DNA from: an uncultured Bacteroidota bacterium
GTDB lineage: Bacteria; Bacteroidota; Bacteroidia; UKL13-3
NCBI GenBank assembly: GCA_903927505.1
Contig: CAIYNF010000164.1
Location: 1 to 36,482 of the forward strand
Direction of reading: 5' to 3'
DNA: 36,482 nucleotides
Translations under genes and position numbers: made by a program
In this document: positions 3,359 to 15,702 of the stretch, one piece after another
Layout of the letters: the number at the start of each line of letters is the position of its first letter
Numbering within the stretch: the stretch's first letter is position 1
The notes under the pieces: model-generated
What the model was told of the DNA's origin: nothing
Seen by the model: the letters and a program-made list of their open reading frames with translations, nothing else
Databases searched by the model: none

Positions 3359-4102
3359 ATGAAAACAAGAAATCAGGGACTTTTTGTACTCCTATTTTCA
3401 AGCATATTATTTGGTACTGCTTGCAAAAAAAATGTAAGCTTAGAAGCTATTAAACCCAATACCAATGTTAGAATTGAAATATCACATGTTGTAGACAATA
3501 CTCCGCTACTATTCGACAGTATAAACTATGCAAATAAAGGAGGCAATAAATACAGCGTAACACGTTTAAATTATTACATATCTGATATCATTCTTCAAAA
3601 CAACAAAGGTGAAACTTATAATAGCAATAGCACCTATTATGTAAATGGAAGAAATGCTTCAAATGTGATAAATTTACTAGAAATGCCAACTGGAAACTAT
3701 ACCAGTATGCGCTTCCTAATTGGATTAAACCCAACACAAAACACAAGCAATTCTCTTGAAAACAATGTAGACAATTTAAACATGGCTTGGCCAGAAGTTA
3801 TTGGTGGTGGCTACCACTTCCTAAAATTTGAAGGCTATTACCTAGATTCGGCTCGAACCAAACAAGGTTTTACAATGCACCTAGGAACAAACGACATGCT
3901 GGTTGTGCACCAAAGTTTACCTATTTCTTTGGTAATTGAAGAAAACAAACCAGATACCATTGGCTTACAAATGAACTTAAATGAATGGTTTCAAAATCCA
4001 CATACATGGGACTTTAACGTAGACGGAAATTATACCATGGCCATACCAGAATTAATGACACTCCTAAAAAACAACGGAACAGATGTATTTACCATTAAAT
4101 AA
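3359..4102 (+). CDS. MbnP-like copper-binding lipoprotein
   Basis: A 247-residue secreted lipoprotein. It has a signal peptide, lipobox-like LFGTAC at about residues 17-22, then KKN. The body resembles the MbnP family: repeated YYISDI/YYVNG strands, a GNYTSMRFLIGLN motif and MAWPEVIGGGYHFLKFEGYYLD. Characterised MbnP proteins bind copper through a site that needs a Trp-to-kynurenine modification made by the di-haem partner MbnH. Candidate Trp residues here are in MAWPE, LNEWF and HTWDF; I cannot say which aligns with the modified one. The di-haem gene overlaps its 3' end by 20 bp, the usual pairing. No methanobactin precursor or mbnB/C gene is in the window, so the pair probably serves general copper handling. 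Confidence 0.75.
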   Translation: MKTRNQGLFVLLFSSILFGTACKKNVSLEAIKPNTNVRIEISHVVDNTPLLFDSINYANKGGNKYSVTRLNYYISDIILQNNKGETYNSNSTYYVNGRNASNVINLLEMPTGNYTSMRFLIGLNPTQNTSNSLENNVDNLNMAWPEVIGGGYHFLKFEGYYLDSARTKQGFTMHLGTNDMLVVHQSLPISLVIEENKPDTIGLQMNLNEWFQNPHTWDFNVDGNYTMAIPELMTLLKNNGTDVFTIK

Positions 4103-5132
4103 AAATATTGCAGGATTTGTCTTTATAACAAGTGTATTTTTTGCCTGCAAGCAAAACGACACTCCTAAACAGGTGAACACCTACCCAACACCATACGAAA
4201 TGAGTGTACCACCAGGCTTTCCAAAACCAGAACTATCCAGCATTAACCCACTTACCGTTGAAGGAATTCAACTGGGAAAAATGCTGTATTCAGATTCAAT
4301 ATTATCAACTAATGGAAGATCTTGCACCAGTTGCCATCTCGCAATTAACTCTTTTTCATTGCCTATTTTCAATTCATGGAGTGGCAGAAAATTTAGCGTA
4401 CCTGCACATATCAATTTAGGATTCAAAAAACAATACAATTGGGAAGGTTCACAAGAATGTTTAGACACCTTGGCTATGGACGATTTTGATCCGGAGTTTT
4501 TTAATACAAATCCTGAAATTTTGTATAAAAAACTAGCTGCTCATCCTATTTATCCAACACTCTTTAACCAAGCATTTGGCATTTCTGATATAAGCAAAAT
4601 ACCCTTTCAAGAATTAAAAAGAAAAATCGCTTATTCTCTTGCGCAATATTTAAGATCTAAGGTATCAGTCAATTCAAAATTCGACCAATATAGAAACAAA
4701 AAAGCCTTATTAAACAATTTAGAATACGAAGGTTATGTGATATTTTACTCTGAAAAAGGAGATTGTTTTCATTGCCATTCAGAGCCACTTTATACAGATC
4801 AACAGTTCCATAATAACGGTGTAAGCAATACTTATGTGGGCTTTGATTTGGGCCGGCAAAACATTAGCAACAAAGAGGAAGACAAAGGTAAATTCTTTAC
4901 CCCAACCCTTAGAAATATAGAACTCACAGCGCCATACATGCATGATGGCAGATTTAAAACATTACAAGAAGTAGTTGATTTTTACAGCGAAGGAGTTGCA
5001 GAAAATCAATATGTAGATCCTTTAATGACCAAACGAAATGGCACAAGGAAATTAAATTTAACAACATTAGAAAAAATACAACTTATAGCATTCTTAAAGA
5101 CATTAACAGATTTAGATTATTTGAATAAATAA
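4083..5132 (+). CDS. Di-haem cytochrome c peroxidase-like protein (MauG/MbnH family)
   Basis: Secreted protein of 349 residues with an N-terminal lipoprotein signal (FITSVFFAC, Cys about 22) and two c-type haem sites, CTSCH at 81-85 and CFHCH at 228-232. The C-terminal block TPTLRNIELTAPYMHDGRF is typical of bacterial di-haem peroxidases, MauG and MbnH. The ATG at 4083 lies inside the 3' end of the upstream gene. It is the only start that keeps the signal peptide, so translation is probably coupled. The partner argues for an MbnH-like oxidase acting on the MbnP-like protein rather than a stand-alone H2O2 peroxidase. Deciding needs alignment of the second axial ligand (Tyr in MauG-type, Met in CcpA-type), for which QYVDPLM near the C-terminus is the relevant region. 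Confidence 0.8.
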   Translation: MYLPLNKNIAGFVFITSVFFACKQNDTPKQVNTYPTPYEMSVPPGFPKPELSSINPLTVEGIQLGKMLYSDSILSTNGRSCTSCHLAINSFSLPIFNSWSGRKFSVPAHINLGFKKQYNWEGSQECLDTLAMDDFDPEFFNTNPEILYKKLAAHPIYPTLFNQAFGISDISKIPFQELKRKIAYSLAQYLRSKVSVNSKFDQYRNKKALLNNLEYEGYVIFYSEKGDCFHCHSEPLYTDQQFHNNGVSNTYVGFDLGRQNISNKEEDKGKFFTPTLRNIELTAPYMHDGRFKTLQEVVDFYSEGVAENQYVDPLMTKRNGTRKLNLTTLEKIQLIAFLKTLTDLDYLNK

Positions 5133-5200: not shown

Positions 5201-5752
5201 TTATTTCGGTAACAACACCTTATTAATTACATATACAATGCCATTTGTAGCTTTTACATTTCCCAAAAGCTCAGCATCGTTAATAAATGTTTTACCATCT
5301 TTAATTGAAATAGTGGCTATTCCTCCATTAACCATTTCAATTTTCTGTCCATCAGTAAACATCGTTGGCTGATAAACAGCTACGGCAACATGGTATTGCA
5401 AAATATTTTGCAAATCAGCTTTCTTTTCTGGTTCCAATAAGCCCTCAACAGTTCCTGCTGGCAATGCAGCAAAAGCATCATTCACTGGAGCAAATACTGT
5501 AAAAGGTCCAGCATTAGATAAAACATCAACTAGTTCGGCTGCTTTTATAGCCGTTACCAAAGTTGAATGGTCTTTAGATCCAATTGCAACCTTTACAATG
5601 TCCTTTTGGGAATCATCATCTTGCACTCCCGATTGACCTGACAAAGCAGATTCAGTGACGGTTGTTTCAGCCTTTTCTTCGTTTTCACCTCCACATGCCG
5701 ATAAAAAAAACAAAGCTAAAATGGCGGTTGTTGTAAAAATTAATTTCTTCAT
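5201..5752 (-). CDS. Fasciclin-domain lipoprotein
   Basis: Small secreted protein. The true start is most likely the ATG at 5752 (MKKLIFTTTAILALFFLSACGG), not the 63-nt-longer ORF. It gives 183 residues with a clear lipoprotein signal (FLSAC) and places the start 20 bp after a perfect -7 box. A short acidic linker follows, then one fasciclin (FAS1) domain: STLVTAIKAAELVDVLSNAGPFTVFAPVNDAFAALP, LLEPEKKADLQNILQYHV, and a final NGIVYVINKVLLPK. FAS1 domains usually mediate adhesion or matrix contacts; no substrate can be inferred. It diverges from the Rrf2 regulator. Its promoter carries both a TTCGGA inverted repeat and a TGAC-N4-GTCA palindrome, so it probably belongs to the same nitrogen-oxide regulon. 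That link is inference. Confidence 0.88.
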   Translation of the reverse strand: MKKLIFTTTAILALFFLSACGGENEEKAETTVTESALSGQSGVQDDDSQKDIVKVAIGSKDHSTLVTAIKAAELVDVLSNAGPFTVFAPVNDAFAALPAGTVEGLLEPEKKADLQNILQYHVAVAVYQPTMFTDGQKIEMVNGGIATISIKDGKTFINDAELLGNVKATNGIVYVINKVLLPK

Positions 5753-5771
5753 ATGATTATAAATTATAAAG

Positions 5772-5779
5772 CAAATATA
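5772..5779 (-). promoter_or_regulatory. -7 promoter box of the fasciclin gene
   Basis: On the minus strand this reads TATATTTG, an exact TAnnTTTG match. The 20-bp inverted repeat at 5781-5800 abuts it on the upstream side. The palindrome centred at 5808.5 is 36.5 bp from the last base of the box, the same spacing as in the mbnP-like promoter. No -33 TTG was seen at normal spacing. Confidence 0.6.
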
Positions 5780-5780
5780 T

Positions 5781-5800
5781 TTCGGACAAATACATCCGAA
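5781..5800. promoter_or_regulatory. Rrf2-candidate operator, copy 1
   Basis: TTCGGACAAATACATCCGAA has 6-bp arms TTCGGA/TCCGAA around an 8-bp centre. It matches 17 of 20 positions of the repeat at 6439-6458; only the AAA/TTT triplet differs. It sits directly upstream of the fasciclin -7 box and between divergent fasciclin and rrf2 genes. This placement suits a repressor encoded by the adjacent Rrf2 gene. Identity of the binding protein is inferred. Confidence 0.6.
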
Positions 5801-5801
5801 A

Positions 5802-5815
5802 ATGACAATTGTCAT
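5802..5815. promoter_or_regulatory. Crp/Fnr-type palindrome between the fasciclin and rrf2 genes
   Basis: ATGACAATTGTCAT is a perfect 14-bp palindrome with the TGAC-N4-GTCA core. It is placed near -42 for the minus-strand fasciclin promoter and, less certainly, near -65 for the plus-strand rrf2 promoter (weak -7 box TTAATTTG at 5861-5868). It could therefore act on both genes. Confidence 0.55.
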
Positions 5816-6471: not shown

Positions 6472-6951
6472 ATGAAAAATAAATTATTAATCGGAGCCTC
6501 CATGTTAGCGCTCATTTTTTTAGGTGCTTGTGGAGATGGAAACCCAAATGAAGAAGGAACATCTAACCAAAGTAATCCAGAAGTAAATGCTGCTGAAAGC
6601 AAAACTGAAGACAACAAAGGTCTTGGTAAATTTACCAATGTTGAACTAAGCCATCCACTCGATCAAAAAATGATTGATGCTGGAAAGCAAGTTTACGATG
6701 TTAAATGTGGTTCGTGCCACAGACTAACAAATGAAAAACTTGTTGGCCCAGGATGGAAAGGTGTAACCAGCAGAAGAAAGCCTGAATGGATCATGAATTT
6801 TGCAACAAATGCAGAAGAAATGCTCGCAAAAGATGCCACTGCTATGGCATTATTAGAAGAATGTTTAATACGTATGCCCAATCAAAATTTAAGTGATGAG
6901 GACGCTAGAAATATTTTAGAATTTATGAGAAATAATGACGGAGATAAATAA
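6472..6951 (+). CDS. Mono-haem cytochrome c lipoprotein of the nos operon
   Basis: A 159-residue lipoprotein. Its signal ends in FLGACGDG (lipid Cys about 20), followed by a low-complexity acidic linker to about residue 55 and one class I cytochrome c domain. The haem site is CGSCHRL and the probable axial Met is in the MPNQNLSDEDARNILEFM segment. Small c-type cytochromes often precede clade II nosZ and are thought to carry electrons to the CuA site of NosZ; that role is inferred here. The gap to nosZ is 14 bp, so the two are co-transcribed. The promoter region carries four palindromes, described separately. Confidence 0.88.
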   Translation: MKNKLLIGASMLALIFLGACGDGNPNEEGTSNQSNPEVNAAESKTEDNKGLGKFTNVELSHPLDQKMIDAGKQVYDVKCGSCHRLTNEKLVGPGWKGVTSRRKPEWIMNFATNAEEMLAKDATAMALLEECLIRMPNQNLSDEDARNILEFMRNNDGDK

Positions 6952-6965
6952 ACCAATTTAATTAT

Positions 6966-8951
6966 ATGAGAATTACAATAAAACCGCTAATTGCCATTGC
7001 TATAGTAATGGTTAGCATTTTAGGAACCAGTTGCAAAAACAAAGGTTCAAAATCTGGAAGCGCAAAAGATGCTGCCTCTAAAGTTTATGTTGAACCAGGT
7101 AAATACGATGAGTTTTACAATATTGTATCTGGTGGATTCAGTGGACAAGTTTCTATTTATGGCATTCCCTCAGGGCGCCTATTTAGAGTAATTCCTGTTT
7201 TTTCTGTTAACCCCGAAAGTGGTTATGGCTTTAATGAAGAAACAAAACCAATGTTAAATACTTCTCATGGATTTGTTCCTTGGGACGATTCACATCATAT
7301 TGCACTGTCACTTACAAATGGCACACATGATGGTCGTTGGACATTTATCAATGGTAACAATACGCCACGTATTGCACGTATTGATATGAAAACATTTAGA
7401 ACTGCCGAAATTATTGAAATTCCAAATAGCAGTGGAAACCATAGCTCTCCATTTATTACCCAAAATTCAGAATATGTGGTTGCAGGTACACGTTTTAGCT
7501 ACCCTATGGATGATGACAATAGCAATCCTGATGTTCCAATAAATACCTACAAACAAAATTTTAAGGGAACCGTAAGTTTTATTTCTATCGACCCAAAAGC
7601 AGGTACAATGGGATTAGGTTTTCAACTTCTATTACCAGGCTTTAATTTCGATTTAGCGCGTGCCGGTAAAAAAGCTTCAGGTGACTGGGTTTTCTTCTCT
7701 TGCTATAACACAGAACAAGCAAACACTTTATTAGAAGTGAACGCCTCACAAAAAGACAAAGACTTTATTATGGCCGTTAATTGGAAAAAATGTGAAGAGC
7801 TTGTAAAAGCAGGAAAAGGAACCAAGAAAAAGGTAAAATATGCCCATAATATATATAATGAAGAAACACATTCTGCAAAAAGTGAAATATTAACAGATGT
7901 AACCATGTTGGATTCAAAACAATTTGAAGGTTTGGTTTATTTTATGCCATGTCCTAAATCACCGCATGGTTGCGATGTGGACCCAACTGGCCAATACATT
8001 GTAGGCTCAGGAAAATTAGCTGCAATTATTCCTGTATTCTCATTTGATAAAATGTTAAAAGCCATAGCAGCAAAAACATTTGAAGGCAATTTTGAAGGTA
8101 TTCCTGTTTTAAAATATGATGCAGTTCTTCACGGGGAAGTTAAAAAACCAGGATTAGGCCCATTGCATACAGAATTTGACGACAAAGGAAATGCCTATAC
8201 CTCCTTCTTCGTTTCATCTGAAATAGTAAAATGGAATATTGAAAAATTAGAAGTTCTTGATCGTGTTCCTACCTATTATTCTATTGGACATTTATGTGTA
8301 CCAGGTGGACCAACAACCAAACCATGGGGAAAATATGTAATTGCTTACAACAAAATCACCAAAGACAGGTATTTGCCAACAGGTCCTGAATTAACACAAT
8401 CAGCTCAATTGTATAGCATTGATGGAGATAAAATGAAATTATTACTTGATTTCCCAACCATTGGTGAACCGCATTATGCAGAAGCAATTCCTGCTGAATT
8501 AATTGTAAAAAATAGCACCAAAATGTTCAAAATTGAAAACAACAAACATCCCTATGCCGCTAAAGGAGAAGGAATGGCTAAAGTTGAAAGAAAAGGCAAG
8601 GAAGTACATGTTTGGATGACTTCAATTCGCTCACATTTTACACCAGATAATATTGAAGGAATAAAAATGGGTGATGTGGTTTATTTCCATATCACAAACC
8701 TTGAACAAGATTGGGATGTTCCTCATGGATTTGCTATTAAAGGTGCAAACAATGCAGAACTACTAATTATGCCAGGTGAAACCGCAACACTAAAATGGAC
8801 GCCAGATAGAGTTGGTGTGTTTCCAATGTATTGCACAGACTTCTGCTCTGCCTTACACCAAGAAATGCAAGGATACGTTCGCGTATCACCAGCAAGTTCA
8901 ACAGTACCTATTAGCTTCTCTACTGGTACAAATACCGCAGCTAAAAACTAA
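6966..8951 (+). CDS. nosZ: Nitrous oxide reductase, clade II (Sec/lipoprotein type)
   Basis: Terminal reductase of denitrification, N2O to N2, acting outside the cytoplasmic membrane. All seven candidate CuZ histidines are present: H110, H111 (DSHHIA), H121 (NGTHDGRW), H334 (SPHGCDVD), H401 (PLHTEF), H442 (IGHLCVPGG) and H503 (EPHYAEAIP). The C-terminal cupredoxin domain has H587 (VPHGF) and the CuA motif C623-x3-C627-x3-H631-x2-M634 (YCTDFCSALHQEM). The 661 residues therefore look fully functional. There is no twin-arginine signal. The N-terminus is a Sec signal with a possible lipobox (LGTSCKN), as expected for clade II, so copper is loaded after export. It is followed by a hairpin and then by nosL, nosD, nosF and nosY. 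Confidence 0.97.
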   Translation: MRITIKPLIAIAIVMVSILGTSCKNKGSKSGSAKDAASKVYVEPGKYDEFYNIVSGGFSGQVSIYGIPSGRLFRVIPVFSVNPESGYGFNEETKPMLNTSHGFVPWDDSHHIALSLTNGTHDGRWTFINGNNTPRIARIDMKTFRTAEIIEIPNSSGNHSSPFITQNSEYVVAGTRFSYPMDDDNSNPDVPINTYKQNFKGTVSFISIDPKAGTMGLGFQLLLPGFNFDLARAGKKASGDWVFFSCYNTEQANTLLEVNASQKDKDFIMAVNWKKCEELVKAGKGTKKKVKYAHNIYNEETHSAKSEILTDVTMLDSKQFEGLVYFMPCPKSPHGCDVDPTGQYIVGSGKLAAIIPVFSFDKMLKAIAAKTFEGNFEGIPVLKYDAVLHGEVKKPGLGPLHTEFDDKGNAYTSFFVSSEIVKWNIEKLEVLDRVPTYYSIGHLCVPGGPTTKPWGKYVIAYNKITKDRYLPTGPELTQSAQLYSIDGDKMKLLLDFPTIGEPHYAEAIPAELIVKNSTKMFKIENNKHPYAAKGEGMAKVERKGKEVHVWMTSIRSHFTPDNIEGIKMGDVVYFHITNLEQDWDVPHGFAIKGANNAELLIMPGETATLKWTPDRVGVFPMYCTDFCSALHQEMQGYVRVSPASSTVPISFSTGTNTAAKN

Positions 8952-8960
8952 TTTAATAAT

Positions 8961-8992
8961 GCCCAACAGTTTTATAAATAAAGCTGTTGGGC
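8961..8992 (+). terminator. Intra-operon hairpin after nosZ
   Basis: Arms GCCCAACAG and CTGTTGGGC enclose an AT-rich loop whose ends can also pair. It is followed by TTAAATTTT, a poor U-tract. It could be a partial terminator or a 3' stabiliser that raises nosZ mRNA above the accessory genes. It ends 13 bp before the nosL-fusion ATG. Confidence 0.6.
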
Positions 8993-9005
8993 TTAAATTT
9001 TAACA

Positions 9006-9992
9006 ATGAAATTCAATAAATATTTCCGATTTTTATTAGGTGCCTCTTGCCTTTTAGCTATCTATTCACTCTACCTACCCATATGGGAAATATACCTATG
9101 GGCACCACAATATCCAGAGGGTTTATCTGTTCAGATCTGGCATAATGATGTAAGAGGAGATGTGGATATTATCAATGGACTAAACCATTACATTGGCATG
9201 AAACATATAAAAACAGAAATGTTTCCTGAATTTAAGGTGTTAATTTATCTTATCCTTGCCTTCATAGGTTTTGGTTTCCTAACCGCTTTAATTGGTTCCG
9301 TTAAACTATTAAAAGCATTTCTCATAACATGTGTGCTTGGTGGTATCATTGCCTTGGCAGATTTTTACAGATGGGGATACGATTATGGCCATAACCTAGA
9401 CCCAACTGCTCCCATTCAAGTACCTGGCATGGCCTATCAACCACCAATAATTGGCTATAAAGACTTATTGAATTTTACTGCATTATCAATGCCCTCCAGC
9501 GGAGGATGGCTAATTATTTCAGTTGCTGTAATTGCATTTGTTGCGCTAATTTTCAATTGGCTAAAAAACAAAAAAATGGCAAGCATAGCTCCATTGTTAG
9601 TAGTATTTACATTGCTACAATCATGTCAAAACAATATTCCTAGCATAGCATTTGGAACTGATGATTGCGATTTTTGTAAAATGAAAATAATGGACAAAAA
9701 ATTTGGTATTGCATTTAAAACACCTAAAGGAAAAGTTTTTAAATTTGATGATTTTCATTGCTACCAATCCTATTTAAAAGACCTGCCTACTAATGAAAAG
9801 TCAACCTATGTAGTTTGCTTCGATCAGCCGGGAGAATTAATAGAATCTAAACTTGCAAGTTTCGCAAATGGGGAACAAATTCACAGTCCAATGGGCGGCG
9901 GAATAGCTTTTTTTAAGGACCCAAATAATATAGAAATAAATTTCCCAGCTATCGAAAAGAAAGGGAAATTCGAAGAATTGACAAATGAATAA
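9006..9992 (+). CDS. nosL: Membrane protein-NosL fusion, copper chaperone for NosZ
   Basis: A 328-residue two-part protein. Residues 1-190 hold four predicted membrane helices (about 8-28, 76-99, 101-121, 166-186) with a 45-residue outer loop; I do not recognise the family with certainty. NosB-type membrane proteins of clade II nos clusters are a candidate. Residues 191-328 are a NosL domain: an internal MASIAPLLVVFTLLQSC segment that looks like a complete lipoprotein signal peptide, then DDCDFCKMKIMD (C-x2-C-x-M copper motif), DDFHCYQSYL and SPMGGG. NosL delivers Cu(I) for NosZ maturation. There is no stop between the parts, so this is a fusion or a gene with an internal start at the ATG at 9576. 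It overlaps nosD by 8 bp. Confidence 0.88.
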   Translation: MKFNKYFRFLLGASCLLAIYSLYLPIWEIYLWAPQYPEGLSVQIWHNDVRGDVDIINGLNHYIGMKHIKTEMFPEFKVLIYLILAFIGFGFLTALIGSVKLLKAFLITCVLGGIIALADFYRWGYDYGHNLDPTAPIQVPGMAYQPPIIGYKDLLNFTALSMPSSGGWLIISVAVIAFVALIFNWLKNKKMASIAPLLVVFTLLQSCQNNIPSIAFGTDDCDFCKMKIMDKKFGIAFKTPKGKVFKFDDFHCYQSYLKDLPTNEKSTYVVCFDQPGELIESKLASFANGEQIHSPMGGGIAFFKDPNNIEINFPAIEKKGKFEELTNE

Positions 9993-11220
9993 ATTTTTTC
10001 TATTTATTACTACCCTACTTCTGCTTATTATAAATGCGAATGCAAAGCAAATAGTAGTTAATCCAAATTCCAAGAAACACCCCATTCAAAACGCTCTCTC
10101 TCAAGCAAAAGCATTTGATACAATCATCATTTTAAGTGGAAATTACTTTGAGGGTAATTTAAAAATCACCAAACCAATAACCATCATTGGTAAAAACTAT
10201 CCTTGCCTTTCTGGTGAAAATAAATATGAATTAATTTCCATTGAGGCAAACAATGTTAACATTAAGGGTTTAAAACTAATTAATTCTGGCTACTCAGACT
10301 TAGAAGACATGGCTGCCATAAGAATTTATGGCAATAAGAATATTATCCTATCCAATAATATACTTGAGAATAATTTCTTCGGAATTTACCTAACAAATGC
10401 AAGTTATTGTTTAGTAGAAAACAACAACATTACAGGTCCAGATAGAGATCAAAATAATGTTGGAAATGGCATTCATCTCTGGAAATCAACCCATAACTAC
10501 ATTTTAAAAAACAAAATCAAAAAACACCGCGATGGAATTTATTTTGAATTTGTAAAACACTCCATCATTGCAAATAATTTTAGCGAATGTAACCAACGTT
10601 ATGGCTTACATTTTATGTTTTCAGATTCTGATACCTATTATAAAAACACATTCAAAAACAATGGAGCAGGTGTTGCTGTAATGTATAGCAAAAATGTAGT
10701 TATGCTCAAAAACACCTTTGTTTTAAATTGGGGTAGTTCTGCTTATGGACTGCTGCTAAAGGATATTAGAGACAGTAAAGTGCTAAATAATATATTCAAA
10801 AAAAATACAGTAGGTATATATATGGATGGTTGCAGCAGGTCGCATTTTATAAAAAATAATTTTTTAAACAATGGTTATGCTTTAAGAATGCAAGCAAGTT
10901 GCGACGATAATATTTTTAATTTCAACAACTTTATAACTAATACATTCGAGTACGCAACCAACGGTTTTACCGTATTAAACGAAATAAACTTTAATTACTG
11001 GGATAAATACCAAGGCTATGATTTGGAAAGGGATGGCATTGGCGACCAAGTTTTTCATCCTATGAATATGTTAACAGGAATCATAGAAGAATATCCAAGT
11101 ACCATTTTATTATTGCAGAGTTTCCTTTCAGACTTACTTAATTTACTCGAAAAAGTAATTCCATCTCTTACCCCAGAAAACCTAAGAGACAATTACCCCC
11201 TAATGAAACCAATCTTATGA
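9985..11220 (+). CDS. nosD: NosD, periplasmic beta-helix copper-maturation protein
   Basis: A 411-residue secreted protein with a signal peptide (about 1-20, ending NANA-K). The long run of parallel beta-helix repeats is visible as recurrent N-I-x-x-N-x-F/I patterns (NNILENNFFGIYLTNAS, NNITGP, GIHLWKS, GIYFEF, YGLHFMFS, GIYMDGCSRSH). The C-terminus has the NosD-like NFNYWDKYQGYDLERDGIGD block. NosD works with the NosFY ABC transporter to assemble the CuZ cluster of NosZ. The start overlaps the nosL fusion by 8 bp and its end overlaps nosF by 4 bp (ATGA), so the three are translationally coupled. Confidence 0.95.
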   Translation: MNKFFLFITTLLLLIINANAKQIVVNPNSKKHPIQNALSQAKAFDTIIILSGNYFEGNLKITKPITIIGKNYPCLSGENKYELISIEANNVNIKGLKLINSGYSDLEDMAAIRIYGNKNIILSNNILENNFFGIYLTNASYCLVENNNITGPDRDQNNVGNGIHLWKSTHNYILKNKIKKHRDGIYFEFVKHSIIANNFSECNQRYGLHFMFSDSDTYYKNTFKNNGAGVAVMYSKNVVMLKNTFVLNWGSSAYGLLLKDIRDSKVLNNIFKKNTVGIYMDGCSRSHFIKNNFLNNGYALRMQASCDDNIFNFNNFITNTFEYATNGFTVLNEINFNYWDKYQGYDLERDGIGDQVFHPMNMLTGIIEEYPSTILLLQSFLSDLLNLLEKVIPSLTPENLRDNYPLMKPIL

Positions 11221-11921
11221 TTGAAATAAATAAGCTTTATAAAAGTTACCATAAACATGAGGTCCTTAATGATATCAACCTAAAACTGGAAAAGGGCATG
11301 ATTGCAGGACTAATTGGACAAAATGGAACAGGCAAAACAACCCTCATTAAATGTATTCTGGGATTAACACAATACCAAAAAGGAGATATTCTCATCGACA
11401 ACAAATCCATTCAAATTGGCCCTGAGTACCGTCAAAAAATTGGCTATATGGCTCAAATTGGTAAATACCCAGAAAACATGAGTATTGCCCAACTGTTTTC
11501 AATGATGCATGAAATAAGACAAGTAAATGAAACAGACAACGAACTCTATGAACAGTTTGAAATAAAAAAAATTGAAAGAAAATTACTGGGACAATTAAGT
11601 GGTGGAACAACTCAGAAAGTAAGTGCCGCATTGGCATTTTTATTTAAACCAGAAATTCTAATATTAGACGAACCAACCGCAGGACTAGATCCAATTGCTT
11701 CAGAAATTTTAAAGGATAAGATAAGCAAAGAAAAAGAAAACAAGCTTATCCTTATCACTTCACATATACTTAACGACCTAGATGAAATAGCCTCACACGC
11801 TATTTTTCTGCAAAATGGTAAACTGCTTTTTTTTGAAACAATTCAAGCACTCAAAGCAAAAAGTGGTCACCACAAATTAGGAAAAACCATTGCTGAAATA
11901 ATGAAGGAAAAACAACAATAG
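11217..11921 (+). CDS. nosF: NosF, ABC transporter ATPase
   Basis: ATP-binding subunit of the NosDFY system, cytoplasmic face of the membrane, 234 residues. Walker A is GQNGTGKTT (about 36-44), the signature is LSGGTTQK, Walker B is ILILDEPTAGLDP and the switch His is in LITSH. The signature deviates from LSGGQ as usual for NosF-like proteins. It energises NosD/NosY during CuZ assembly. The ATGA overlap with nosD and a 2-bp gap to nosY show a tight operon. Confidence 0.94.
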   Translation: MIEINKLYKSYHKHEVLNDINLKLEKGMIAGLIGQNGTGKTTLIKCILGLTQYQKGDILIDNKSIQIGPEYRQKIGYMAQIGKYPENMSIAQLFSMMHEIRQVNETDNELYEQFEIKKIERKLLGQLSGGTTQKVSAALAFLFKPEILILDEPTAGLDPIASEILKDKISKEKENKLILITSHILNDLDEIASHAIFLQNGKLLFFETIQALKAKSGHHKLGKTIAEIMKEKQQ

Positions 11922-11923
11922 CT

Positions 11924-12691
11924 ATGATTAAAATTACCAAATACCTCACAATAAGCATCCTCAAAAGTAAATTCATTATTGGATATGGCTTGCTCCTATT
12001 TAGTATATGTATTGGTTTATTTGCAATTAGCAACGACCAAGACAAAGCCATTATTGGAATCAATAATGTGCTACTAATTATTATTCCTATTGTAGTAATG
12101 ATTTACACAGTGAGTCAAATTTACCAATCAACTGATTTTATTAGACTTCTCTTGACCCAACCTATCAAAAGAAAATTTATATTTTTTAGCCAGTTTTTCT
12201 CTTACACAATCGTTTTGGCTTTGATCCAAAGCCTTTCCATTACCTTTTCTTTTATTCTATTCTCAGATGCTTCTTTACTATTTACAGTATTGCTTAATAG
12301 CCTTTTTTTAACCTTTATTTTCAGTGCAATTTCATTTCTAATTGCGTATTCAATAGATGAAAAAGTTAAAGGAATTGGCGTTACTATATTTTTAGGAATT
12401 TACTTTTTAGCTATTTATGATGGCCTATTACTTTTTTTAATTCAAGCTATGAGTGATTACCCTATTGAAAGATTCGGAATCCTTTTGAGCCTCTTCAATC
12501 CTATTGATTTATGTAGGATATTGTTTATTTTCAAAATGGACATCTCCGCATTAATGGGAATAACAGGCGCCATTATGCAAAAAATCATTGGATCGAACCT
12601 CGGTACTATTGTTATATTCATTGTATTGAGCTTGTGGGCTTGTATACCACTTATATTGGCAGGCAGGAAATTCATTAAAAAGGATTATTAA
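11924..12691 (+). CDS. nosY: NosY, ABC transporter permease
   Basis: A 255-residue integral membrane protein with about six hydrophobic helices and an ABC-2-type permease layout. A conserved-looking SQIYQSTDFIRLLLTQPIKRKFIFFSQFFSY segment lies between helices 2 and 3; such TQPI/RxxI segments are typical of NosY. It is the last gene of the tightly packed nos block. A 160-bp gap follows, holding a short palindrome (AGAAATTAATTTCT at 12705-12718) but no convincing terminator, and then a new promoter for the next two genes. Confidence 0.92.
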   Translation: MIKITKYLTISILKSKFIIGYGLLLFSICIGLFAISNDQDKAIIGINNVLLIIIPIVVMIYTVSQIYQSTDFIRLLLTQPIKRKFIFFSQFFSYTIVLALIQSLSITFSFILFSDASLLFTVLLNSLFLTFIFSAISFLIAYSIDEKVKGIGVTIFLGIYFLAIYDGLLLFLIQAMSDYPIERFGILLSLFNPIDLCRILFIFKMDISALMGITGAIMQKIIGSNLGTIVIFIVLSLWACIPLILAGRKFIKKDY

Positions 12692-12802
12692 CGCAACTTA
12701 TACCAGAAATTAATTTCTACAGACCATCCTATAAATAGCATAGAAACAGTAATAAAGTTAAAAATTAATAGGAAGTTTTTTTTTATTACTTGGCTATTTC
12801 GC

Positions 12803-12810
12803 TATTTTTG
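12803..12810 (+). promoter_or_regulatory. -7 promoter box of the lipoprotein-copper receptor pair
   Basis: TATTTTTG matches TAnnTTTG exactly and ends 40 bp before the preferred ATG at 12851. Neither the TGAC-N4-GTCA nor the TTCGGAC motif is seen upstream, so this unit may be controlled differently from the nos operon, or by read-through. Confidence 0.5.
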
Positions 12811-12850
12811 AAATGCAATTCATTTGCAAAATCATTTCCTAACCAATATC

Positions 12851-13693
12851 ATGAGAAAAATATTCTATTTCCTTTGCCTTGGAATTTCATTATTTGAATT
12901 GTCTTCTTGCAAAAAGAATTCAGAGGAACCACCACAATTACCTCCAGTAGTTTTTGCCGAACCAAACACCCCTGAAGGTATGGTAAAAATTGGCACAAGT
13001 TATATCAATGGCGCCAATGCAAAAGCCTATATTTACAGTTATAACAGCCTTTTTGTAGGCTATAACCAATTATTCATAGCCTTGTACGACTCAACAACTG
13101 GCAAACGAATTAACAACGGAACCTTAAATTGCCTTGCACTTAAACATACCGGAAGTGTTGAAAAAGCTTGTCCAAAAGAAATTACAAAAAATACGCTTGA
13201 TTCAAATTTGCTTTACCCCATCAATTTTATTTTTGATGAAGCAAGCTCAACTACTCTTAATTGGGATTTAAATTTCAACTTCTACCAATCAATAGGAAAC
13301 TCATTTAGTGGCAAACTTGACATTTCCGTTGGCAACACAAGTGAACCAAGGGTACTTCATTTCAAAAGTCTAGTTGATTCTCAATCATACGTAATTGCCT
13401 ATATTCCTCCTGTAAAAGTAAAAGTAGGATTAAATGATGCCGAATTTATTATCCACCAAGAAAACAGCAATTACAGTTTTACAGCTGCCGAAAACCTAAC
13501 TACAGTTATTGTATTAAGTATGCCAGCAATGGGACATGGATCGCCAAATAATGTTAGTCCAGTGCATACTCAAAACGGACATTATATGGGTAAAACAAAT
13601 TTCACCATGAGTGGCCTTTGGAAAATCCAATTGAAATTATTCAAAAATGGTATTCTAATTTCAGATCAAGTGATTTTTGATTACACAATTTGA
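12851..13693 (+). CDS. Met/His-rich lipoprotein, possible periplasmic copper-binding protein
   Basis: The ATG at 12851 is preferred over the ORF start at 12824, because it gives a clean lipoprotein signal (MRKIFYFLCLGISLFELSSCKK). The mature protein has about 260 residues and probably two beta-sandwich domains. The second ends MPAMGHGSPNNVSPVHTQ, then NGHYMGKTNFTMSGLWKIQ, resembling YtkA/FixH-like domains in which Met and His cluster near the tip. The position directly before a copper-type TonB receptor, with a 4-bp overlap (TTGA), suggests it hands copper on from that receptor or binds it at the outer membrane. Function is inferred from composition and context; no close family is recognised with certainty. 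Confidence 0.7.
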   Translation: MRKIFYFLCLGISLFELSSCKKNSEEPPQLPPVVFAEPNTPEGMVKIGTSYINGANAKAYIYSYNSLFVGYNQLFIALYDSTTGKRINNGTLNCLALKHTGSVEKACPKEITKNTLDSNLLYPINFIFDEASSTTLNWDLNFNFYQSIGNSFSGKLDISVGNTSEPRVLHFKSLVDSQSYVIAYIPPVKVKVGLNDAEFIIHQENSNYSFTAAENLTTVIVLSMPAMGHGSPNNVSPVHTQNGHYMGKTNFTMSGLWKIQLKLFKNGILISDQVIFDYTI

Positions 13694-15702
13694 TCAAGCA
13701 AATTTTAAAACTTTCAGCATTCCTAGGCATATTATTACTGCCTCATTTATTATGGGCGCAAACAGATACACTTCGTTCCAAAATCTTAGGTGAAGTAACC
13801 ATTCAAGGTGCGGAAAACAACAAACAATTTAATTTCTACCAAAGCTCCAAATTAGCCAGTACGGAAGAAATATTAAGCAAAATGGAAGGCGTAAACCTCA
13901 TCAGAAGGGGTGCTTACGGTATGGAACCTACCCTCAGAAATTACAGCGCCAACCAAATCAATTTAAGTATAGATGGCATGCGCATTTACGGCGCCTGCGC
14001 AGATAAAATGGATCCTGTTTCCATTTATGTTGAACCAATAAATTTACAAGGAATCACCGCCAACCAAGGCGCGCAAGGAAACTTCACTGGAAGCAGCATT
14101 GGCGGCAATATCAATTTAAAGTTTAAAGCACCTGCAACCCTTTGTCATAAACAAGAACTTACACAAGTTATACAATCCTATAATACCAACAACCAGGCCA
14201 TTTCAACAAGTTTTGCATATGAAAAATCTGGACCACTTAATGGCTTGCGTTTAAGTGGAACCTATAGAAAAGCAAACGACTACAATGCACCAGACAGCCT
14301 AATCAAACACAGTGGCTATGAGAAAATAAACTTCGCAATCTCTTTCCAACAAGTTATCGATTCAAGCAACCAAATAAGAATAAATTACTTAGGCGATTTG
14401 GGTCGAAACATAGGATACCCTGCCCTACCCATGGATGTAGGAACAGCCAATGCACATATTTTTTCTTTAAGTCATTTGTATAAAAGTAAATTAGAAGATG
14501 GCTTAACTTCAGAAACCAAAATATATTACAATACCATTTTTCACCAAATGGACGATACGCATAGGGAAACTATTGCCATGCACATGGACATGCCCAGTTG
14601 GAGTAAAACCATGGGATTCTATAATGAGGCTTCCTTCAAATTAAGGAAGCAAAAATTATTAACCCGCATAGATGCACACCATAACACTTTGCGTGGCGAT
14701 ATGACCATGTATCCCAACAATGGCAATCCAAAAATGTACATGCAAAGCATGCCAGAAAACACCATTAAAAACATAGGCTTTGCTTTTCAATACCAAATAG
14801 ACCTGCGCTACAATTATTTCATGAAATGGAATGGCCGTATAGATTATTTCAAACAGCAGGCATTACTTGGAGTTGGTTCGGACCAATGGAATGGAATGGG
14901 CTTTAACATTAATGAGATTAGAGCTAACGCAATTAAAAGTCTTTCTTGGATACATGGCCTACTTATGAAAAAAGGCATGAGCCAAACGCTTATTATGGCC
15001 TATGGAGAGCGTTTGCCTAGCAGCAATGAACGCTATGGATTTTATCTTTTCAATCCAATGGACAATTACGACTACCTCGGGAATCCTGATATTAATACAG
15101 AAAAAAGTGTTCAGGTTGAATATATCTTAAAACAAGATTTAAAAGCTTTTCAATGGAGCGTTCAACCCTTCTATCACCATACCCTAGATTATATTTATAC
15201 TTATATTAAAGACCCAAACGACTACTATCCAATGACCATTGGGGCAAAAGGGGTTAAAACATATAAGAATATTTCCTATGCAAATTCAATGGGTGCAGAG
15301 GCTTCGTTTTCTTTTAAAATAAATAGCAATTGGATTTATAAAAGTAACCTCAAATACATTTACACAGAAACATCAGATGGAAAAGCATTGCCATGGGTTG
15401 CACCCTTTAAAATCCAACAAGCTTTAAGAAGCACCATTGGCGGCATTCAATACCAATTAGAACACACCTTTGCCACAGCTCAAAATAGGATCAATACAGA
15501 TTTTGGCGAACGTAAAAGTCCAGCCTTTCAATTGTGGAATTTACGTGCCTCAAAATCATTCACAAAGAAAAAGCAAACCTTTCAATTTGCAATTGCCATA
15601 GAAAATATACTCAATACCAGCTACCACGAACATTTAGATATTGGCTATATTCCAAGAATGGGCAGGAATTTCAATTTCACTTTCGGATACATTTTAAGGT
15701 AG
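13690..15702 (+). CDS. TonB-dependent copper receptor-like outer membrane protein (NosA/OprC-like)
   Basis: A 670-residue TonB-dependent receptor. It has a signal peptide (to about residue 23, LLWAQ), a plug domain (ILGEVTIQGAENN, STEEILSKMEGVNLIRRG, INLSIDGMRIYGACADKMDP, SSIGGNINLKF) and a 22-strand-type barrel ending in NFTFGYILR. The plug contains C103-x3-M107 (CADKM). OprC, the Pseudomonas copper receptor, uses a CxxxM pair with a His/Met pair from the barrel. Here a candidate is MHMDM around residues 297-301, and another Met-rich loop (MTMYPNNGNPKMYMQSM) follows. It would import copper needed by NosZ. The start is TTG, overlapping the stop of the lipoprotein gene (TTGA), so translation is coupled. 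Confidence 0.85.
   Translation: MIKQILKLSAFLGILLLPHLLWAQTDTLRSKILGEVTIQGAENNKQFNFYQSSKLASTEEILSKMEGVNLIRRGAYGMEPTLRNYSANQINLSIDGMRIYGACADKMDPVSIYVEPINLQGITANQGAQGNFTGSSIGGNINLKFKAPATLCHKQELTQVIQSYNTNNQAISTSFAYEKSGPLNGLRLSGTYRKANDYNAPDSLIKHSGYEKINFAISFQQVIDSSNQIRINYLGDLGRNIGYPALPMDVGTANAHIFSLSHLYKSKLEDGLTSETKIYYNTIFHQMDDTHRETIAMHMDMPSWSKTMGFYNEASFKLRKQKLLTRIDAHHNTLRGDMTMYPNNGNPKMYMQSMPENTIKNIGFAFQYQIDLRYNYFMKWNGRIDYFKQQALLGVGSDQWNGMGFNINEIRANAIKSLSWIHGLLMKKGMSQTLIMAYGERLPSSNERYGFYLFNPMDNYDYLGNPDINTEKSVQVEYILKQDLKAFQWSVQPFYHHTLDYIYTYIKDPNDYYPMTIGAKGVKTYKNISYANSMGAEASFSFKINSNWIYKSNLKYIYTETSDGKALPWVAPFKIQQALRSTIGGIQYQLEHTFATAQNRINTDFGERKSPAFQLWNLRASKSFTKKKQTFQFAIAIENILNTSYHEHLDIGYIPRMGRNFNFTFGYILR

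Follow-up and report, generated by a model that had tools for sequence, protein, structure and literature searches.

Capture of a substrate by a lipoprotein and its hand-over to a TonB-dependent receptor are known from the BtuG-BtuB, SusD-SusC, and HmuY-HmuR pairs. A TonB-dependent copper receptor is OprC of Pseudomonas aeruginosa, whose copper ligands are C143, M147, H323, and M325 (PMC8610252). An OprC-like receptor is also on record for Bizionia argentinensis and is listed near the transcription units of a P-type ATPase, CcoG, and NosL (PMC11213822). Two further systems bear on the locus described here: YtkA, identical with CtaK, a lipoprotein that Bacillus requires to assemble CuA when copper is scarce (PMC9145763; PMC13344008), and the copper-sensing leader peptides CruR and CutF, CutF-like proteins being already known as frequent in Bacteroidota (PMC9426467, PMC9973294). 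In the 36,482 nucleotides of an uncultured Bacteroidota bacterium that were analyzed (hereafter the window), a YtkA-type lipoprotein gene and an OprC-type receptor gene overlap directly downstream of a nitrous oxide reduction (nos) cluster.

An OprC-type receptor with a complete copper site

The receptor gene and the parts of it that concern metal binding are as follows.

13690 to 15702, + strand: OprC-type TonB-dependent receptor, 670 aa, TTG start (TIGR01778, 9e-39; nearest PDB entry OprC; AlphaFold2 pLDDT 90.6)
13996 to 14010, + strand: C103 and M107 in the plug, CxxxM half of the copper site, aligned with OprC C143/M147
14542 to 14550, + strand: H285 and M287 in the barrel (sequence HQM), HxM half of the copper site, aligned with OprC H323/M325
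14578 to 14751, + strand: Met-rich loops MHMDM (residues 297-301) and MTMYP...MYMQSM (residues 338-354), a candidate methionine track

The initial annotation had likened this receptor to OprC and NosA, and OprC indeed proved to be its nearest solved relative by both sequence and predicted fold. The best NCBIfam model was TIGR01778 (TonB-dependent copper receptor; 133.7 bits), matched by all 64 aligned receptors; because the score of the window receptor lies under the curated equivalog cut-off of 472.45 bits, we refer to it as OprC-type rather than as an OprC/NosA equivalog. OprC was also the closest PDB entry by sequence, and a profile of the 64 receptors searched against the PDB placed it (E = 2e-59) more than 30 orders of magnitude in E-value ahead of the next family, PhuR (E = 1e-26). 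A fold search with the AlphaFold2 model returned OprC (6fok; E = 2e-37, TM 0.81-0.83) ahead of PhuR and ZnuD. The receptor thus groups with OprC and not with siderophore or cobalamin receptors, and an identity as a siderophore, cobalamin, zinc, or heme receptor was rejected on the agreement of PDB profile, family models, and fold.

All four OprC ligand positions are occupied. C103, M107, H285, and M287 are invariant in the 64 aligned receptors, which bears out the CxxxM motif first noticed in the plug; in a mutant OprC chain (6z8s) the M287/M325 column is occupied by H instead of M, as expected for the published M325H. Also invariant are M97, M248, M299, M301, M338, and M340, with M349 kept in 63 of 64 sequences, and M299, M301, M338, and M340 fall within the two Met-rich loops. 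Such invariance across 64 sequences is not a matter of chance. The loops (MHMDM and MTMYPNNGNPKMYMQSM, the latter being residues 338-354) had been recognized from the start and their methionines are conserved, but it is H285/M287, and not MHMDM, that provides the HxM motif of the copper site. The full ligand set points very strongly to copper as the cargo. A receptor for some other cargo (heme, zinc, or a siderophore), its likeness to OprC being ancestral only, would accommodate the weak matches to heme, ZnuD, and B12 models; set against the invariance of four copper ligands and of the Met loops and against the lead of OprC in the PDB profile, we regard it as very improbable.

A lipoprotein of two YtkA domains

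The gene upstream of the receptor encodes a lipoprotein with one conserved and one degenerate putative metal site.

12851 to 13693, + strand: tandem-YtkA lipoprotein, 280 aa (PF13115, 1.7e-8, on domain 2)
13130 to 13174, + strand: degenerate domain-1 site, with M98, M100, M103, and H105 replaced by K, T, V, and K, and C94, H99, and C107 there instead
13520 to 13609, + strand: domain-2 Met/His cluster M224, M227, H229, and M253 (MPAMGHG...FTM), invariant in 71 sequences

The better start is the ATG at 12851, the TTG at 12824 merely adding nine residues, and a type-II signal peptide (MRKIFYFLCLGISLFELSS, up to C20) precedes the lipidated cysteine (C20, 12908-12910). The mature part is all-beta in the AlphaFold2 model (pLDDT 92.1) and comprises two domains, at about residues 42-158 and 166-280. 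Domain 2 is a YtkA domain (35.4 bits versus a gathering threshold of 25.9), and all 71 of 71 aligned lipoproteins match PF13115 at E ≤ 0.01; domain 1 is a second, diverged copy, which hhalign aligned to domain 2 (97.2%, E = 3.4e-11), bringing their Met/His motifs into register. The MPAMGHG...HTQNGHYM segment highlighted by the initial annotation turned out to be the core of the YtkA domain; W257 of domain 2 is as invariant in the 71 sequences as its Met/His cluster. In domain 1 the family usually carries M98, M100, M103, H105, and M130, and just 2 of the 71 sequences, that of the window and that of its sister locus L094, have lost this Met/His site (residues 94-130) entirely. Neither a SusD nor a BtuG fold was found in the lipoprotein, YtkA being its sole Pfam family, and a fold search gave only weak, generic beta-sandwich matches (TM 0.16-0.29). 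Its single PDB relative by sequence is a “copper resistance protein” (9ll2; 4.8e-6), for which we found no published paper.

Lipoprotein and receptor genes recur as a pair

Within the window, the two genes share a TTGA overlap at 13690-13693, as the open reading frame positions had indicated. Across an unselected phylum sample of 297 genomes, a receptor homologue was found in 52, a lipoprotein homologue in 39, and both in 36 (Fisher P = 2.6e-30), and 37 of 44 full-length lipoprotein homologues directly adjoined such a receptor. Querying named genomes with the lipoprotein, an approach that favors close relatives and repeats a few loci of the phylum sample, yielded 80 loci, and in 80/80 the receptor was the next gene on the same strand; both ratios are counts of loci and not of independent events. 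Pairs also occur in records titled Chlorobiota and Ignavibacteriae, and pairing state changes just four times on the receptor tree (FastTree). Among the seven unpaired lipoproteins, one is followed by putative Sco and PCuAC copper chaperones and another lies near a putative heavy-metal-domain protein, both named from their sequences. The lipoprotein resides mostly beside copper genes. As a statement about gene linkage, the proposal of a lipoprotein dedicated to this receptor is therefore upheld. Linkage of this kind makes a functional partnership highly likely and suggests a physical one. That the two are chance neighbors, brought together next to nos without a shared function, has next to no probability given the pairing in 37/44 and 80/80 loci over many families, including the Chlorobiota and Ignavibacteriae records.

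Linkage to nos is recurrent but not general

Upstream of the pair, the window contains the following genes.

3359 to 4102, + strand: MbnP-family lipoprotein (PF20243, 2.3e-31)
4083 to 5132, + strand: MbnH-family di-heme protein (TIGR04039, 1.4e-52, under the curated cut-off; PF03150, 2.8e-26)
6472 to 12691, + strand: nos cluster of cytochrome c, Sec-type NosZ (6966-8951), NosL fusion, NosD, NosF, and NosY (TIGR04246, TIGR04247)

The nos assignment scored above cut-off with both models (TIGR04246, 926 bits; TIGR04247, 404 bits). NosL (9006-9992) is apparently fused behind a membrane domain of ∼200 aa, the two being separate genes in many relatives. The unit had been described as appended to the nos operon: it does adjoin nos in the window, but it is not specific to nos. 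Of the 36 genomes in the phylum sample that carry the pair, 12 (window included), about one-third, have it next to nos genes, and 22 of 130 receptor loci are nos-linked. On the receptor tree (FastTree), nos linkage changes 15 times, at least 12 of these on well-supported branches, and so many changes indicate that the unit joined, or was lost from, nos clusters repeatedly. Co-occurrence of the lipoprotein with nosZ in the 297 genomes was modest (Fisher P = 0.006, kinship ignored), and a role as a nos-specific part was rejected because most pairs lie away from nos. We interpret the unit as a copper importer of general use. In this particular genome, NosZ is probably the main copper client. The contig begins (1-384) inside a gene of the heme-copper oxidase/NO-reductase family (PF00115), and no copper nitrite reductase was found in the genome.

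These associations also bear on which side of the membrane the lipoprotein serves. It could be held by the outer membrane on the periplasmic side, taking copper at the periplasmic exit of the receptor and handing it to CuA-type sites in NosZ or cytochrome oxidase, a task that CtaK performs for the oxidase of Bacillus. The role of CtaK in CuA assembly (PMC9145763; PMC13344008) speaks for such a relay, NosZ has a CuA site, and genes of the heme-copper oxidase family are encoded in the same genome. YtkA proteins with a known role are chaperones on the outside of the cytoplasmic membrane, which would suit a periplasm-facing lipoprotein just as well. Against the relay, the lipoprotein is tied far more tightly to the receptor than to nosZ (Fisher P = 2.6e-30 versus 0.006), a contrast that favors a function at the receptor over one at a single client enzyme, and the family shows an export-like signal. 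The published export signal is C-X-K-(D/E)2 (PMC5080379); the family consensus after the lipidated cysteine, K-K-D-D/E, is close to it, and at least two acidic residues occupy positions +2 to +7 in 65% of the family versus 28% among the remaining lipoproteins of these neighborhoods. For the family as a whole this consensus favors the cell surface; the window protein is undecided, as it reads CKKNSEE, with its acidic pair two places off the optimal signal (SusD genes of the same genome start CKKDFLD and CRKWLE). On balance, a surface position seems somewhat more probable than a periplasmic one, and we consider the periplasmic relay a rather unlikely alternative to the surface model.

Located 5' of nos in the window, the MbnP/MbnH pair (3359-5132) often accompanies the lipoprotein-receptor unit elsewhere and directly adjoins it in several relatives; in the 297 genomes, co-occurrence of MbnP with the unit (P = 4e-7) was stronger than that of nosZ. 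The window MbnP reached 109.6 bits with PF20243 (gathering threshold, 27) and 24.9 bits with TIGR04052, under the cut-off of 140; it is without the WxW stretch of its relatives, reading WPEVIGGGY, and two further MbnP genes are present in the genome. A putative lipoprotein of fasciclin-like appearance, named from its sequence, occupies 5201-5815 (− strand) between MbnH and an Rrf2 regulator. MbnP/MbnH pairs are often found near chalkophore receptors (PMC3621798), and CrtA of Bordetella imports chelated copper (PMC12914433); by analogy, the receptor might import copper bound to a small carrier, with the lipoprotein capturing the complex. The full CxxxM-HxM ionic-copper site is, however, invariant here, and OprC, with the same site, takes ionic copper (PMC8610252). 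Uptake of a copper complex is accordingly an improbable reading beside that of ionic copper import.

A leader ORF in relatives and a possible promoter in the window

Relatives of the unit carry, just upstream, a short ORF of ∼120-150 aa with a hydrophobic start, a cysteine, a CxGxC (CxxxC) motif, and a terminal HPP or PP. It was detected in 69 of 80 named loci (background, 3/265) or, by a broader definition, in 87 of 106 paired loci versus 19 of 681 background ORFs, and it heads most units in Bacteroidota and kin (loci L031-L173). The ORF list held no CutF-like leader between 12692 and 12850 of the window, and a profile search of the genome found none either, which is a weak negative. In raw counts the leader ORF was missing from 9 of 19 nos-linked versus 10 of 87 other loci (P = 9e-4). 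Comparison of independent pairs gave a median P of 0.5, and we do not claim that units embedded in nos clusters generally lack it.

The window has instead a noncoding stretch before the lipoprotein gene.

12692 to 12850, + strand: nosY-lipoprotein intergenic region, 159 bp, with a promoter-like conserved block (ATTACTTGGCTATTT..CTATTTTTGAA.TGCAATT), blocks shared with L094

The conserved blocks include an element resembling the consensus TAnnTTTG. Conservation of these blocks in L094 suggests that transcription of the pair may start from a separate promoter, in which case the unit would be more than an appendage to nos. An imperfect TTGCAA inverted repeat (12813-12829) precedes the lipoprotein gene and is more regular in L094. 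As a regulator site it was rejected: there are 15 matches in the window versus 9 expected, 2 of 100 shuffles reach 15, and since the matches are scattered over the whole window the count is not telling.

Proposed role and comparison with known systems

We propose that the lipoprotein and the OprC-type receptor form an outer-membrane copper-acquisition unit. The tandem-YtkA lipoprotein, most likely placed above the receptor at the cell surface, would collect copper on its Met/His cluster and pass it to the methionine track of the receptor; imported copper would then most likely feed NosZ here, through NosL/NosDFY, and the MbnP/MbnH pair would be a further copper-handling element. This explanation as a whole is likely, and the copper context of the unit (MbnP co-occurrence and CutF-like leader ORFs) adds to the support from ligand set, OprC kinship, and pairing. 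Against it weigh the receptor score (133.7 versus a TIGR01778 cut-off of 472), the loss of the domain-1 metal site in the window, the shifted acidic pair of the window lipoprotein, and the chaperone role of known YtkA proteins. A broader generalization is tentative, its chances being slightly short of even: that a surface lipoprotein of two YtkA domains acts as the lid or feeder of an ionic-copper TonB transporter, in the manner of SusD or BtuG, in an arrangement of long standing among Bacteroidota and kin that mostly follows the leader ORF and has repeatedly become attached to nos, with the leader missing in some of the nos-attached cases including the window.

Among known biological sinks of N2O, NosZ-type reduction is the largest, and it depends on copper supply. 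If correct, the model offers a testable route of copper acquisition for N2O reducers of the Bacteroidota, with an importer that is repeatedly nos-linked; it would extend the principle of lipoprotein plus TonB receptor from sugars, B12, and heme to an ionic metal, and it would point to a function for the many lipoproteins with YtkA domains. A Bacteroidota receptor of the OprC type has already been published (PMC11213822), so the unreported part is the lipoprotein partner; in a search that covered mainly journals outside subscription, we found no literature linking YtkA with TonB receptors, the single paper that mentions both being unrelated, and the novelty of the pair is provisional to that extent.

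Among known systems, OprC of P. aeruginosa and NosA of P. stutzeri are, like the window receptor, TonB-dependent receptors with a CxxxM plug and HxM barrel motif at aligned positions and Met-rich loops, and NosA shares the tie to N2O reduction. Identity to OprC is 18-19% over the fold alignment, and the window receptor comes with a dedicated lipoprotein, whereas the accessible part of PMC8610252 mentions none for OprC. The B. argentinensis receptor is likewise a Bacteroidota TonB receptor with CxxxM-HxM, for which the available portion of the 2024 article mentions no lipoprotein partner (PMC11213822). MbnP/MbnH, known as the metallo-mystery pair, has the two placements given above, before nos in the window and adjoining the unit in several relatives. 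CruR of Bordetella and CutF of Rhodobacter have the layout of the ∼125-aa ORFs of relatives (hydrophobic start, CxxxC, C-terminal PP), a feature of those relatives only and absent from the window. BtuG-BtuB, SusD-SusC, and HmuY-HmuR share a lipoprotein gene placed beside its own TonB receptor and the logic of capture and hand-over (PMC6143338, PMC5080379); BtuG, SusD, and HmuY differ in lipoprotein family and cargo, and the surface position is putative in our case. YtkA/CtaK and the YtkA domain of YcnJ in Bacillus subtilis have in common with the window lipoprotein the PF13115 domain with conserved Met/His residues, CtaK being itself a lipoprotein, and, under the model proposed here, the delivery of copper to respiratory enzymes. 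CtaK, however, is a membrane lipoprotein of a Gram-positive bacterium, whereas the window protein carries two such domains in tandem and belongs to a family paired near-constantly with an outer-membrane receptor.
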